Source of the DNA: Tepidisphaeraceae bacterium
GTDB lineage: Bacteria; Planctomycetota; Phycisphaerae; Tepidisphaerales; Tepidisphaeraceae
DNA: 64,000 bases
NCBI GenBank assembly: GCA_035998445.1
Contig: DASYHQ010000051.1
Coordinates: 1-64,000, forward strand
Reading direction: 5' to 3'
The notes under the pieces are model-generated. The model worked only from the letters and a program-made list of their open reading frames with translations. It was not told the origin of the DNA and made no database searches. Positions 14,803 through 62,951 of this stretch are shown piece after piece (positions within the stretch are counted from its first letter, which is position 1; each line of letters opens with the position of its first letter). Both the position numbers and the translations under genes were made by a program.

Positions 14803-15679
14803 GGTTGGATGTTCTAGCAGATCGGATCGTCCTGTTCTTCCGGTTTGATAGATAACAAATATTGAGGTGCTTCTGAAGTGTCTCGTACCTTCGGGATGTC
14901 GGGTTCAGGCCGACACGTTTCGGATGGTTTAGTCTCTATCGCTACAAGGGATACGGTGGACTAATGCGATGAATATGGGGTCGAGTATGGTCAGTCGATT
15001 GTCTTAGTCGTATATGTGCGTATCGATTTCCGATCGTCGACGCTGGCACCACAGGCGCCTGTAGCACGAAGGGGCGCTGAAGGCTTGGGAGGTTCGACCT
15101 CGACTGCTGCCCGCGTGTGGCAGGTCGAGAGTGTGCACGCGATCCGCAACCCTCCCCTGCTCCGTCTGGTTTGGTGACTCCCGGGCGGTGGTTTTCCAAT
15201 AGGCATGCGTTTATGTGGGAGGATCGTCAGGGCGAGGGAGTCTCCCGGCAAAGGTTGACTTTGGTTTGCTGCGGTTGCGGGATTTAGCCCTTGATGTGCT
15301 GAGAATTGTTGGGGTGTCTGTGACTTTGCCCGATTGGTATCTAGCGTGTTTGCACCTTCTAGTTTAGAAACTGGCTTGCGTGCCACGGTTCGGTACTCCA
15401 ATCCGTGCTGATGCACAAGAGCGCGGTTTGGAGTACCAGAGCACGGTACCCAGCTCTAACGTGCCGGCGTGGCTGGCCGCAAAAGCGTATAGCACGCTCT
15501 AGTCATACATCGCAGGCGGACTTATCTATCGAGGTCGGTTTGCGGCGGACTCTGGTGTGGCTGGTTGGACTACCCCCTGCAGTAACATTTGCGGGCTTGG
15601 GGGGCGGGAATGTTGGGAGGTATGCCGCGGGACCGAAGGGTGATGTTCCACGTGGAACATCACCCTGGGTCTTTAAATC
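14803..15679. other. Long intergenic region between deoC and parB, containing parS-1
   Basis: 877 bases without a convincing gene. The plus strand here is noticeably richer in G and T than in C and A, line after line. Short open frames exist but have no ribosome sites and no recognisable product. A parS palindrome lies at 15644-15659, close to the parB stop. I looked for DnaA boxes (TTATNCACA), for a tRNA fold and for RNase P or tmRNA signatures and saw none. Confidence 0.6.
15644..15659. promoter_or_regulatory. parS site 1 (ParB-binding palindrome)
   Basis: TGTTCCACGTGGAACA is a perfect 16-bp palindrome matching the well-known chromosomal parS consensus (TGTTCCACGTGGAAC as in Caulobacter/Pseudomonas; TGTTTCACGTGAAACA in Bacillus). 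It lies 21 bases beyond the 3' end of parB. Confidence 0.93.
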
Positions 15680-16612: not shown

Positions 16613-17379
16613 TGATGTTCCTTCTTTTCTTGTTCCACGTGGAACACTCTAGCAAGCCAACAGGGCGTCGCAAAGAAATTCGAATATGACGCGTCAAACT
16701 CAACAATTGAGCTGCAACGGTGCCCCAGCGAATAAGCGAGCAAGTCCATTGAAGCCACATCAGGACGGACTCCCGTTCACAACGTTTCCAACCAGAATTT
16801 GAAGGATTGCTGCAGGCGGGCTACCCGGTCACTGAAGCAGTGGGGTGGAGTGCTACCAGCGGTGAAGCGGCGCGAGCGAATGGCAGCCGCCTCTCGAAAG
16901 GAAGGAAAGGCTTTTCAGAAATCTCCGCACGCTTCGTGTCCATTCCGTTCCCAACTGTCTCCCTCAGCACTACGCGTATAGAACGGCTACCACCATCAAC
17001 GCAGGTAAGGATGAGCAGCCCATAGATAGGTGCCACAAAATAAGGCCAGCGAACTCCGCAACAACGCTACGCCGGGGCAACTGCAGCCAGCGTCCCACCG
17101 ACGATCACTGCCGCCAATCCCGAGAGGGCACGCGCTGCCGAGTTCGCTCAGCATCGTCGTCCGGTTAGGGCATTTCTCTCCGAACACAAGCCCCCGTTCC
17201 GGAAACAGCACACGTCAGAATATCAAGTCCAGATCGAACTCACCCAATACGGAGCTGGGATATGTATCCAATCTATAAAACAACATCGTCGACATCGTGA
17301 CTTCCTTCACATGGCACCTGAGGCCTCCGCCGCTATAATCGACCGTGACCTGCTACTGTTCGTGAAAGCACAGGGACTT
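16613..17379. other. Long intergenic region between parB and nuoD, containing parS-2
   Basis: 767 bases without a convincing gene. Unlike the gap on the other side of parB, the plus strand here is richer in C and A. It contains parS-2 at 16631-16646 close to the parB start and must hold the divergent promoters of parB and nuoD, though I could not pick either with confidence. The short open frames lack ribosome sites and known motifs. No DnaA box was seen. Confidence 0.6.
16631..16646. promoter_or_regulatory. parS site 2 (ParB-binding palindrome)
   Basis: A second perfect TGTTCCACGTGGAACA, 18 bases upstream of the parB start codon, identical to site 1. Its position in the parB leader would also allow autoregulation. 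Confidence 0.93.
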
Positions 17380-18654
17380 ATGCCATATACACTTGAGCCC
17401 GCCGGTCCGGAAACGCTGTCGTCTGCCGACGCGTCGGGGAACAGCGACAATCGATGGACGTTGAACTTCGGGCCGCAGCACCCCGCGACGCATACGACGC
17501 TGCGCCTCGTTTTGGAACTGGACGGCGAGCGCGTCGTCGGTTGCGTGCCGCACATCGGGTACCTGCATTCGGGCTTTGAAAAGCTCGGCGAGGTCCTGAA
17601 CTACAACCAGTACGTCACCATCGTCGACCGGATGGACTACTCGGCCCCCATTTACAACGAGCTGGCCTGGCACGGGGCGGCTGAAAAGTTGATGGGCATC
17701 GAGATCACGCCACGCTGCAAAGTGCTGCGGACGATCGCCGGCGAGCTGGGGCGCATCCAGTCGCACCTGCTGTGCGTCGGCGCCGCGGGGTTGGACTTGG
17801 GGGCGCTCACGGCGTTCCTGTACGTGTTCAACGAGCGCGAGTCGATCTACGACATCGTCGAGCTGATGAGCGGCCAGCGTTTCCACACCAGCTGGACCCG
17901 GGTAGGGGGGCTCAACCAAGACCTGCCCGACGAGGCGATGTTCAAGAAGATGGTGAAGACGTTCATCAATGAGACGATGCCCCGGGCGGTCGGCGAGGTC
18001 GAAAAGCTGCTGAACAAGAACCGAATCTTCATCGATCGCACGAAGGGCATCAGCCCGATCAGCCGAGAGGACGCGATCGCCTGGAGCATGACCGGCCCCA
18101 TGGCCCGCGCCGCCGGCGTGCGGCGCGACGTCCGGAAAGATGCGCCTTACCTCTGCTTCGCCGACAATTGGGACGGCCAGGGCGCCAAGGCCGTGAAGTT
18201 CCAGGTGCCGGTGATGACGACCGGCGACGTCTACGCGCGGTATCTCGTGCGATTAGAGGAAATGAAACAAAGCTGCGAGATCATCCGCCAGCTGATCGAC
18301 GACATTCCGGGAGGTCCGGTAAACGTTTCGCCGGAAGGCAAGGAAACGCTGCCGCCGAAGGATCAGGTTTACAGCAGCATCGAGGGGCTGATCCAGCACT
18401 TCGAATTGATCATGACAAACCGCGGTTTCGAGGCGCCGAAGGGCGAGGTGTACCACTGCATCGAAAGCGGCAACGGCGAGCTGGGATACTATATAGTAAG
18501 CAGCGGCGAGAACGTCCCCTGGCGCGTCCGCACGCGGCCGCCCTGCTTCATCAATTACCAGACGTTCCCCAAGCTGGTGCAAGGCCACATGATATCGGAC
18601 GTGGTCGCCGTGCTCGGCAGCATCAACGTGATCGCGGCGGAGCTGGACCGATAA
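17380..18654 (+). CDS. nuoD: NADH-quinone oxidoreductase subunit D (complex I 49-kDa subunit)
   Basis: 424 residues, normal for NuoD. The subunit sits in the peripheral arm of complex I and helps form the quinone site with NuoB. Conserved landmarks are NFGPQHPATHTTLR near residue 30, PHIGYLHSGFEKL, the YNQ-TIVDRMDY segment, GGLNQDLP and the C-terminal PCFINYQ--PKLVQGHMISDVVAVLGSIN with the family Asp. The ATG at 17380 follows acaggga; the frame is open to 17311 but the upstream part does not align. nuoA-C are not upstream and nuoF-N are not downstream, so the nuo genes are split in this genome. nuoE follows after an inserted gene. Confidence 0.95.
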   Translation: MPYTLEPAGPETLSSADASGNSDNRWTLNFGPQHPATHTTLRLVLELDGERVVGCVPHIGYLHSGFEKLGEVLNYNQYVTIVDRMDYSAPIYNELAWHGAAEKLMGIEITPRCKVLRTIAGELGRIQSHLLCVGAAGLDLGALTAFLYVFNERESIYDIVELMSGQRFHTSWTRVGGLNQDLPDEAMFKKMVKTFINETMPRAVGEVEKLLNKNRIFIDRTKGISPISREDAIAWSMTGPMARAAGVRRDVRKDAPYLCFADNWDGQGAKAVKFQVPVMTTGDVYARYLVRLEEMKQSCEIIRQLIDDIPGGPVNVSPEGKETLPPKDQVYSSIEGLIQHFELIMTNRGFEAPKGEVYHCIESGNGELGYYIVSSGENVPWRVRTRPPCFINYQTFPKLVQGHMISDVVAVLGSINVIAAELDR

Positions 18655-18655
18655 G

Positions 18656-18686
18656 AAGTGATGAATGAGGAATGCTGAGCGATGAG
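18656..18686. repeat. Left flanking repeat of the bAvd-like insertion
   Basis: Purine-rich gtgatgaatgaggaatgctgagcgatgag directly after the nuoD stop. It resembles the reverse complement of the 'attcaccattcatcattcatc' array at 19080-19113. The start codon of the four-helix-bundle gene lies inside it. Confidence 0.6.
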
Positions 18687-19049
18687 TGGGGAGAGGATCG
18701 GGACCTGCGAGCGAGAACGAAGCGATTCGCGTTGCGAATCATTTCGTTGCACGTCGCCATCAAGAACGATGACACGGCTCGCGTATTGAGGAACCAACTC
18801 CTCCGCAGTGGGACATCAGTCGCGGCTCAGTATCGTGAGGCATGCCGTGCAAGATCTCGTGCCGAATTTATCAGCAAGATCGAATCGGCAACGCAGGAGC
18901 TGGACGAGAGCGCGTTGTGGATGGAGTTGCTAGTCGAGTCGGGGCTTGTGGCCACCGCACGATTGTCAGACTTGCAGCGAGAAGCTGAAGAGATAATGTC
19001 GATGCTCGTCAGTTCCGCGAAGACCTCGAAAGATCGACGTGAACGTTAG
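18672..19049 (+). CDS. Four-helix-bundle protein (S23 / bAvd-like)
   Basis: 125 residues. The segments WGEDRDLRARTKRFALRII, VLRNQLLRSGTSVAAQYREA and EFISKIESATQELDESALWMELL match the 'four helix bundle protein' family (S23 ribosomal intervening-sequence-type, TIGR02436), related to Avd of diversity-generating retroelements. Known members form basic pentamers that bind nucleic acid; many lie inside 23S rRNA intervening sequences or between unrelated genes with short repeats around them. No reverse transcriptase is nearby. It starts 17 bases after nuoD, within a repeat, and ends 68 bases before nuoE, so it is an insertion into the nuo operon on the same strand. Its role here is unknown. Confidence 0.85.
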   Translation: MLSDEWGEDRDLRARTKRFALRIISLHVAIKNDDTARVLRNQLLRSGTSVAAQYREACRARSRAEFISKIESATQELDESALWMELLVESGLVATARLSDLQREAEEIMSMLVSSAKTSKDRRER

Positions 19050-19079
19050 AACAGGAGCTGAATGATCTGCTGACTGGTT

Positions 19080-19113
19080 TTCATTCACCATTCATCATTC
19101 ATCATTCACCATT
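19080..19113. repeat. Right flanking repeat of the bAvd-like insertion
   Basis: tcattcaccattcatcattcatcattcacc is a near-tandem array of 7-base 'attcatc / attcacc' words ending 4 bases before the nuoE ATG. Such attca-rich arrays are commonly seen beside this gene family. Confidence 0.75.
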
Positions 19114-19117
19114 GCCC

Positions 19118-19714
19118 ATGGCTTGGATCACTGAAAACCGTCGTACCGCGATTGTCGAGAAGGGCAGCGCGCCGTACCTCACCGAGGACATGAAGGCCGA
19201 GCTGCGCGACATCTACTTCCCGCGTTACCCGACCAAGCGCGCGGTGCTGCTGCCGGCGTTGCACCTCGTGCAGCACAAGTACAACTGGCTGCCCACCGCG
19301 GCGCTGGAGGAGATCGCGACGTTCCTCGAATTGGCGCCGGCCGAGGTCATGGACACGGTCACGTTCTACGACGAGTACTGGCTGAAGCCCAAGGGCAAGT
19401 ACCTCATTGGTGTCTGCCGGTCGCTCGCGTGCGAGATCTGCGACGGCAACAAGTTGACCGACCATTGCCGCACAAAGCTGAACGTCGAGCCCGGCGACAC
19501 GACGGTTGACGGGCGCTTCACGCTCATCGAGATGGAGTGCATCGGCTCCTGCGGCACCGCGCCGGCGGCGCTGGTGAACGAGGTGCTGCACGAGAACCTG
19601 ACCGTGGAGAAGCTCGACAAGCTCATCGCGACGCTGCCCGCAGATCCGCACAACTACAAAGACCCAACCGTCACGTGGGAGGAGAAGGGCCACGACGGAC
19701 AGGGTGCTCACTAA
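19118..19714 (+). CDS. nuoE: NADH-quinone oxidoreductase subunit E (24-kDa subunit)
   Basis: 198 residues. NuoE carries the N1a [2Fe-2S] cluster in the NADH-dehydrogenase module. The thioredoxin-like domain has the four ligands: Cys100 and Cys105 (GVCRSLACEIC) and Cys141 and Cys145 (MECIGSCGTAP). The N-terminal helical part includes YPTKRAVLLPALHLVQ. The ATG at 19118 sits just after the attca-repeat array, and no clear ribosome site is visible because the repeat occupies that place; a TTG lies 6 bases upstream. nuoF, its usual partner, is not downstream. Confidence 0.93.
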   Translation: MAWITENRRTAIVEKGSAPYLTEDMKAELRDIYFPRYPTKRAVLLPALHLVQHKYNWLPTAALEEIATFLELAPAEVMDTVTFYDEYWLKPKGKYLIGVCRSLACEICDGNKLTDHCRTKLNVEPGDTTVDGRFTLIEMECIGSCGTAPAALVNEVLHENLTVEKLDKLIATLPADPHNYKDPTVTWEEKGHDGQGAH

Positions 19715-62522: not shown

Positions 62523-62951
62523 ATGGGGGAGGGGGAGGGGGAGGGGGAGGGGTGTGTGGCGGGTGGCGGCGCGTCGCTTCGGAGTCTTGGCCGATTGACT
62601 TCGGTGCGCAGCCGATTGGTTGCGCCTCATAACCAATTGATTGCGGTGCGCGGCCAATTGGTTGCGCGTCATAACCAATTGATTGCGGTGCGCGGCCAAT
62701 TGGTTGCGCGTCGTAACCAATTGATTGCGGTGCGCGGCCAATTGGTTGCGCGTCGTAACCAATTGATTGCGGTGCGCGGCCGATTGGTTGCGCGTCATAA
62801 CCAATTGATTGCGGTGCGCGGCCAATTGGTTGCGCGTCGTAACCAATTGATTGCGGTGCGCGGCCAATTGGTTGCGGGTCATAAGCAATTGCTTGAGGAG
62901 CGGAATCAATTGGTTGCGCGGCGAAATCAATGGCTCGAGAGTCATAATTAA
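62523..62951 (+). CDS. Possible heptad-repeat protein encoded by the minisatellite
   Basis: A 142-residue frame from ATG 62523 (a TTG lies at 62490). It begins MGEGEGEGEG from the G-run and then gives heptads such as NQLIAVR-GQLVARH, repeated about eight times, ending NQWLESHN. The regular Leu/Val spacing would form a coiled coil. Reasons for doubt: no ribosome site, the sequence is a minisatellite and the other strand is also open. It is reported because the repeat keeps frame; expression is not shown. Confidence 0.25.
   Translation: MGEGEGEGEGCVAGGGASLRSLGRLTSVRSRLVAPHNQLIAVRGQLVARHNQLIAVRGQLVARRNQLIAVRGQLVARRNQLIAVRGRLVARHNQLIAVRGQLVARRNQLIAVRGQLVAGHKQLLEERNQLVARRNQWLESHN
62525..62552 (+). 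repeat. GGGGGA hexamer run (possible G-quadruplex)
   Basis: Four and a half copies of ggggga in a row, 40 bases before the minisatellite. The pattern satisfies the usual rule for a potential four-stranded G structure. Confidence 0.7.
62593..62940. repeat. 21/42-bp minisatellite (about 8 copies)
   Basis: A 42-bp unit (aattgattgcggtgcgcggcc + aattggttgcgcgtcataacc), made of two related 21-bp halves. Six near-perfect copies run from 62635 to 62886, with degenerate copies before (62593-62634) and after (62887-62928). Copies differ at a few sites, for example cat/cgt in the second half and caa/cga in the first. The unit length is a multiple of 3 and the frame stays open on both strands. Confidence 0.93.

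Follow-up and report, generated by a model that had tools for sequence, protein, structure and literature searches.

The segment at about 18655-19113 of the window (the whole 64,000-nucleotide stretch of DNA that was analysed) is best read, with a probability of about 0.77, as a discrete insertion element. It is composed of a gene for a four-helix-bundle protein (fhb) capped by inverted arrays of 7-nt repeats, and would be a member of a family of "fhb-heptad" elements with a wide distribution, inserted mostly in the sense direction where co-directional genes meet, and on occasion in frame within genes. This reading includes binding of the arms, an enzyme acting in trans, and looping-out of the element. 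Comparative sequence analysis establishes the unit architecture, the cognate pairing of protein and repeat, the occupied and empty sites, the non-sister relationship of the fhb copies found between nuoD and nuoE, and purifying selection on fhb in relatives.

Anatomy of the element between nuoD and nuoE

The element separates nuoD from nuoE, both core genes of respiration, and measures about 455 bases. Its parts and the two host genes are the following:

17311..18654, + strand: nuoD, the host gene upstream of the element
18655..18692, + strand: 5' arm, a degenerate heptad array (GAAGTGATGAATGAGGAATGCTGAGCGATGAGTGGGG) directly after the nuoD stop, of which 18655-18678 pairs with the 3' arm (RNA fold)
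18672..19049, + strand: fhb, 125 residues, an S23/Avd-like four-helix bundle whose ATG lies within the 5' arm (PF05635, TIGR02436, AlphaFold2, Foldseek)
19080..19113, + strand: 3' arm, (CATTCAC/CATTCAT)n, in which the heptads of the 5' arm recur inverted; 4 nt lie between its end and the nuoE ATG
19118..19714, + strand: nuoE, the host gene downstream of the element, its start preceded by the 3' array

The 3' array (19082-19113) holds 4.6 copies of a 7-mer. The arms are inverted with respect to each other: 18659-18678 and 19085-19104 are 90% complementary over 20 nt, and pairing extends to 18655-18678 and 19085-19107 (24 columns, one gap). The "purine-rich repeat" that the first-pass annotation of this DNA had noticed on the 5' side is this inverted partner of the 3' array, a relationship that the annotation had missed. 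The rest of its description, with nuoD ending at 18654, a 125-residue four-helix-bundle gene 17 bases further on, repeats on both sides, and nuoE next, agrees with the coordinates and with the PF05635 and TIGR02436 matches. It also took the ribosome-site region of nuoE to be made of repeat, and this is what is found: the 3' array occupies the region and no Shine-Dalgarno motif is evident before nuoE, whose start (ATG at 19118) is set by alignment with relatives beginning MAWI. The predicted RNA of the window element folds the arms together, end to end (-172.6 kcal/mol vs -156.0 +/- 5.9 for shuffles, z = -2.8). No rRNA family match lies within the 64-kb window.

The fhb gene is present as a single copy in the window genome, and the ATTCATC array has no second occurrence in its 5.84 Mb at up to one mismatch. 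Ranked by complementarity of their flanks among 50 window genes, the element comes second (score 31), behind parB, flanked by parS palindromes (score 32). The window copy, whose arms are imperfect, is alone no more than suggestive, as its rank is only second of 50, and proof must come from relatives; comparison with these settles the repeat-capped pattern. Two perfect parS-like sites (TGTTCCACGTGGAACA) occur at 15644-15659 and 16631-16646, on either side of parB. Elsewhere in the window, a 42-bp unit is repeated in tandem at 62594-62920 (7.8 copies with 92% matches), next to a run of GGGGGA (4.7 copies, 62525-62552).

By profile scores and by fold, fhb encodes a genuine PF05635/TIGR02436 four-helix-bundle protein. 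It matches PF05635 at 5.3e-17 with 62.4 bits (cut-off 33.8) and TIGR02436 at 1.9e-22 with 79.5 bits (cut-off 24). Its AlphaFold2 model has a pLDDT of 93, and Foldseek matches this model to 2rld and 2gsc, both structures of the S23 family; weaker matches are Avd (4dwl, TM 0.74) and the DGR complexes 8ub7, 8ube, and 8ub8. PF05635 has indeed been described as Avd-like (PMC10053308). The protein displays no recognisable catalytic domain, and the element harbours no DDE or HUH transposase, the four-helix bundle being its sole ORF with a family match; lacking a transposase of its own, the element is not a classical insertion sequence. Comparison of related fhb pairs, with dN/dS of 0.16 or less, indicates that the protein is under purifying selection in relatives.

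Relatives of the element and their cognate repeats

NuoD searches yielded scorable nuoD-nuoE junctions for the window and for 14 other genomes of the same bacterial family. Inspection of this junction in relatives had been proposed from the start, since presence of the gene in all relatives, including those devoid of the flanking repeats, would argue for ancient operon membership and against insertion. The gene fhb is found there in two of the 15 genomes, the window and G005, and is absent from the other 13. Six relatives display gaps of 4, 6, 46, 64, 110, and 151 bp, and at others the small cargo is of a different kind: HicAB (in two of them), a PIN-domain protein, DUF4058, and a DinB-like protein. 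The G005 junction (L015/L114) is occupied by a different fhb element, which possesses an inverted array of its own, and the junction L014 has a lone heptad array before nuoE and no fhb. In the protein tree, the window fhb joins that of an Acidobacterium (support 0.80), and the G005 nuoD-nuoE copy joins the second fhb of G005 (0.97). As these two genes are not sisters, their insertions are most simply independent, and the tree suggests two separate events at this junction. The earlier view that a small element had entered a core operon in the sense direction is supported. In this family the nuoD-nuoE junction is a hot spot for small genes (L009, L011, L012, L013, L017, L018, L019, L006), which include also a ParE-like toxin.

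Within the bacterial family, 87 matches to TIGR02436 are distributed over 22 of 26 genomes. Reverse-complementary flanks (score of at least 30) are found at 52 of the 83 fhb loci with usable flanks, whereas mismatched pairs reach this score in 3 of 154 cases and the loci scored in direct orientation in 7 of 83. The other 31 loci are devoid of clear arms, possibly through decay or because they have other roles. Further repeat-flanked fhb genes, which had been suggested for the rest of the genome, are found in relatives and not in the window genome, with its single copy. The elements mostly range from 430 to 620 nt. The period of the arms is strictly 7 (8 in a few), with a self-match of 0.69 at lag 7; apart from lags 7 and 14, it does not exceed 0.33. 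Among arms with scores of 40 and above, the median length is 34 nt, or about five units.

A scan of the genomes of 84,980 species was performed with a profile of the window subfamily, the broader alignment being too little conserved, and returned at least 572 relatives. Arms scoring 30 or more flank 54 of the best 80 of these, in at least 12 phyla. Armed relatives occur in Acidobacteria, Chloroflexi, Verrucomicrobia, Planctomycetes, Deltaproteobacteria, Cyanobacteria, and Bacteroidetes, as well as in Nitrospira, Armatimonadetes, KSB1, Lentisphaerae, Kiritimatiellaeota, Gammaproteobacteria, and others. The fhb family is present in half of 199 genomes from the phylum of the window (Planctomycetota), with up to 22 copies. 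The host genes at the element sites in relatives are scattered, with no functional theme.

Several forms deviate from this architecture. ORF-less mini hairpins or single arms with 7- or 8-nt repeats, often just 3' of stop codons, are observed in G023 (L221, L220, L225) and G007 (L218, L223, L224); in G023, L221 is a hairpin with the same heptads as the elements and lies straight after a stop codon, and L220 is a single arm. A CCACAGAGACACAGAGA-type repeat occurs many times in both genomes. On plasmids, fhb is found in the sense direction with csx2 and cas1 on its two sides, or within operons of the DUF1156-Swt1 or helicase-methylase type (L257 on Pseudanabaena galeata pPg_04, L258 on a Gloeocapsa PCC 7428 plasmid, L256 and L259 on Chlorohelix plasmids). 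Guilt by association is risky here, as an fhb near csx2/cas1 or in defence-like plasmid operons could pass for a part of these systems.

Although the repeat varies from copy to copy, it goes with the fhb subfamily from one genome and site to another. For 50 elements, the more identical two proteins are, the more similar are their arms in 4-mer content (Mantel r = 0.376, reached in 0 of 5000 permutations), the pairs being limited to different genomes and different sites and the sequences being related by descent and hence non-independent. The mean 4-mer cosine of the arms is 0.40 above 50% protein identity and 0.08-0.13 below it. The fhb protein and its repeats therefore travel together, and we infer that the protein binds its own heptads. 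To our knowledge, no function has been assigned to the S23/IVS proteins in decades; a heptad proper to each fhb subfamily leads to the direct hypothesis that the protein binds the repeat. At same-site pairs, 34 of 41 double changes are complementary, a figure that serves as illustration only since the arms were picked for complementarity. Copies more than 84% identical across phyla (L154/L155/L156/L197) were dropped as evidence of homing, their flanks being partly similar and homing not separable from transfer of the neighbourhood.

Mobility, nested copies and rival explanations

Two same-genus pairs display an occupied and a clean empty site, in line with the initial suggestion that the segment behaves as a mobile unit. 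In G023, an element lies between molybdopterin oxidoreductase-like and ferredoxin-like genes (named from sequence), and the empty site of G007 reads CAGTAA-CACGAAAGAATCACA-ATG. In G024, an element separates cysD from cysN, which in G008 are separated by a spacer of ~31 bp. No target-site duplication is seen at these two pairs, whose spacers have diverged. Taken alone, the pairs give no direction, and precise deletions could also account for them; together with the independent insertions, the clean empty sites would make this a mobile element in the general sense. At cysD-cysN, unrelated fhb subfamilies occur in different genera: L049 and L051 belong to one (73% identical), and L082 to another, without significant similarity. 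L076/L083 was rejected as a same-site pair, the neighbours being paralogous ABC transporters.

Placement is biased. Both neighbours are on the fhb strand at 36 elements and both on the opposite strand at 4, most genomes being fragmented MAGs in which gene strands were taken from ORF length. A long sense ORF ends between -60 and +25 nt from the arm start at 80 of 102 elements (median -1 nt), as compared with 11 of 102 at a control position. The bias does not distinguish targeting from the loss of harmful insertions by purging.

In other instances the element is nested inside a gene. Four copies occupy a variable loop of a dnaE2/imuC-like polymerase gene (L054 in G005, L059 in G024, L066 in G020, L074 in G013), and a fifth lies in an acetyltransferase (GNAT) gene (L050 in G011). 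In all five, the host frame is open through the whole element and fhb occupies another frame; the corresponding frame is open in only 2 of 158 non-nested elements. Empty dnaE2 genes exist in the same genera (G008 for G024, G025 for G013). The ribosome thus seems to read through the nested inserts, judging from the frames, and the dnaE2 copies are unusual in that, after insertion, one stretch encodes two proteins in different frames. The dnaE2 loop also harbours ORF-less repeat inserts, in frame, in G011 (L235), G014 (L229), and G003 (L228), and another palindrome (GGCATGGGCGTC...GCCCATGCC) is observed in G016 dnaE2 (L232) and after G016 nuoD (L004).

The nested copies bear on the possibility that the element acts at the RNA level like the intervening sequences (IVSs) of 23S rRNA: the arms would pair in the nuo mRNA and RNase III would cut the stem, so that nuoD, fhb, and nuoE become separate transcripts. 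The end-to-end fold, an anatomy and size as in the Coxiella IVS (PMC4990558), and the 36:4 sense bias agree with this explanation, which we nevertheless consider unlikely: the nested copies keep the host frame open, and their mRNAs are probably translated uncut. An open host frame would be pointless after removal from the mRNA, which argues that excision is not the rule. As a probe of RNA-level selection, G-U and A-C mismatches in the arms were compared and stand at 94:72, an excess in the expected direction that falls short of significance (p = 0.10).

The resemblance of the fhb fold to Avd of the DGR ribonucleoprotein raises the alternative of a retromobile element, in which fhb would serve as an Avd and move via an RNA intermediate with a reverse transcriptase provided in trans. 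The sense bias is compatible with it, and the window genome possesses one RVT_1 gene, on contig C61 (the window is on C51). It is nonetheless quite improbable: RVT_1 has no match in nine fhb-bearing genomes, including the nearly complete G023 and G007, and the numbers of fhb and reverse transcriptase genes are uncorrelated after genome size is accounted for (partial rho 0.04), so that resident reverse transcriptases are not required. The numbers of Y1 transposases, tried as a clue to the mobility enzyme, likewise display no correlation after genome size; present in 26 of 26 genomes, these transposases are uninformative.

An immobile post-transcriptional regulator is about as improbable. The heptads would then be sites bound by fhb close to start and stop codons, in the manner of the TAACTGA repeats known from Beggiatoaceae. 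Protein and repeat are indeed cognate, and single arrays without fhb occur before start codons (L014; PMC4679880). Against it stand the empty sites in sister species, the unrelated fhb genes at one junction, the nested in-frame copies, and the scattered host genes. Finally, an ancient nuo operon member, acting as a complex I assembly or regulatory factor, has position and orientation in its favour, together with the second fhb found there in G005, and is hardly credible given its absence from 13 of 15 junctions, two copies that are not sisters, and relatives located in unrelated genes.

Proposed mechanism and comparison with known systems

The preferred reading remains that of an insertion element, which would move as a unit and be kept at gene ends in the sense direction. 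The fhb protein would act as its specificity factor by binding its own heptads in folded-back DNA or RNA, as a pentamer like its homologues. The S23 protein is a homopentamer (cited in PMC4990558), and the match between its five subunits and the ~five heptads per arm leads to the speculation that each subunit takes one heptad. The bound arms would single out the element for a mobility step that a host or trans-acting enzyme performs; since fhb harbours no recognisable catalytic domain, the joining enzyme would come from elsewhere. In the nuo mRNA, the arms would pair into a stem with fhb looped out and the nuoD stop brought beside the nuoE start, which would make the insertion tolerable and let fhb be expressed from the host promoter. 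The stem may also keep the translational coupling of nuoD and nuoE, possible in view of the spacer of 4-6 nt in two relatives.

In the searchable literature, whose scope leaves aside subscription papers and preprints, heptad-flanked fhb elements outside rRNA are not described. They could, with somewhat less than even odds, represent an unrecognised class of recombinase-less mobile DNA spread over many phyla, in which a pentameric nucleic-acid-binding protein reads the heptads of its subfamily, insertions are made harmless by stop codons or in-frame dual coding, and the 23S rRNA IVSs are the special case found first.

Several known systems share some of these features. The TAACTGA heptad arrays of Beggiatoaceae and cyanobacteria lie where genes of operons stop and start, without a known protein acting on them; their authors remarked that a repeat-binding protein might itself be a mobile element (PMC4679880). 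They resemble the present elements by 7-nt arrays at stop and start codons but are direct, and fhb is unreported with them; a connection to fhb is a guess. REP/RAYT systems likewise combine a single-gene element with short, related palindromes at other places in the genome, but fhb is not a Y1 (HUH) nuclease. The RPEs of Rickettsia are small palindromic inserts in frame within genes (PMC10969869). Such RPEs and MITEs recall the ORF-less hairpins and the copies nested in frame in dnaE2 or the acetyltransferase gene; in contrast, fhb elements possess a conserved gene, which nested copies have in a different frame, and their repeats have units of 7-8 nt. With the Avd of DGRs, fhb shares the four-helix-bundle fold, but it is free-standing, accompanied by inverted heptads, with no reverse transcriptase nearby; nor did a template or variable repeat come to notice.

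The closest relatives are the 23S rRNA IVSs with an S23p ORF, known from Coxiella, Leptospira, and Brucella. That of Coxiella is 428 nt long, with heptameric repeats before its S23p ORF, and is excised by RNase III; the ORF is decaying and probably unexpressed (PMC4990558). In CPR bacteria, IVP genes are also reported from insertions in 16S and 23S (PMC11270868). The present element shares with the IVSs a homologous PF05635 protein, an S23p-type ORF inside, a similar size (about 455 vs 428 nt), and terminal inverted repeats closing a predicted stem. It differs by its location in a protein-coding operon, by heptad arrays at both ends, and by the purifying selection on fhb in relatives, as opposed to the decaying Coxiella ORF. 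It is thus akin to the IVSs in the way it works, but stands outside their class by its location away from rRNA.
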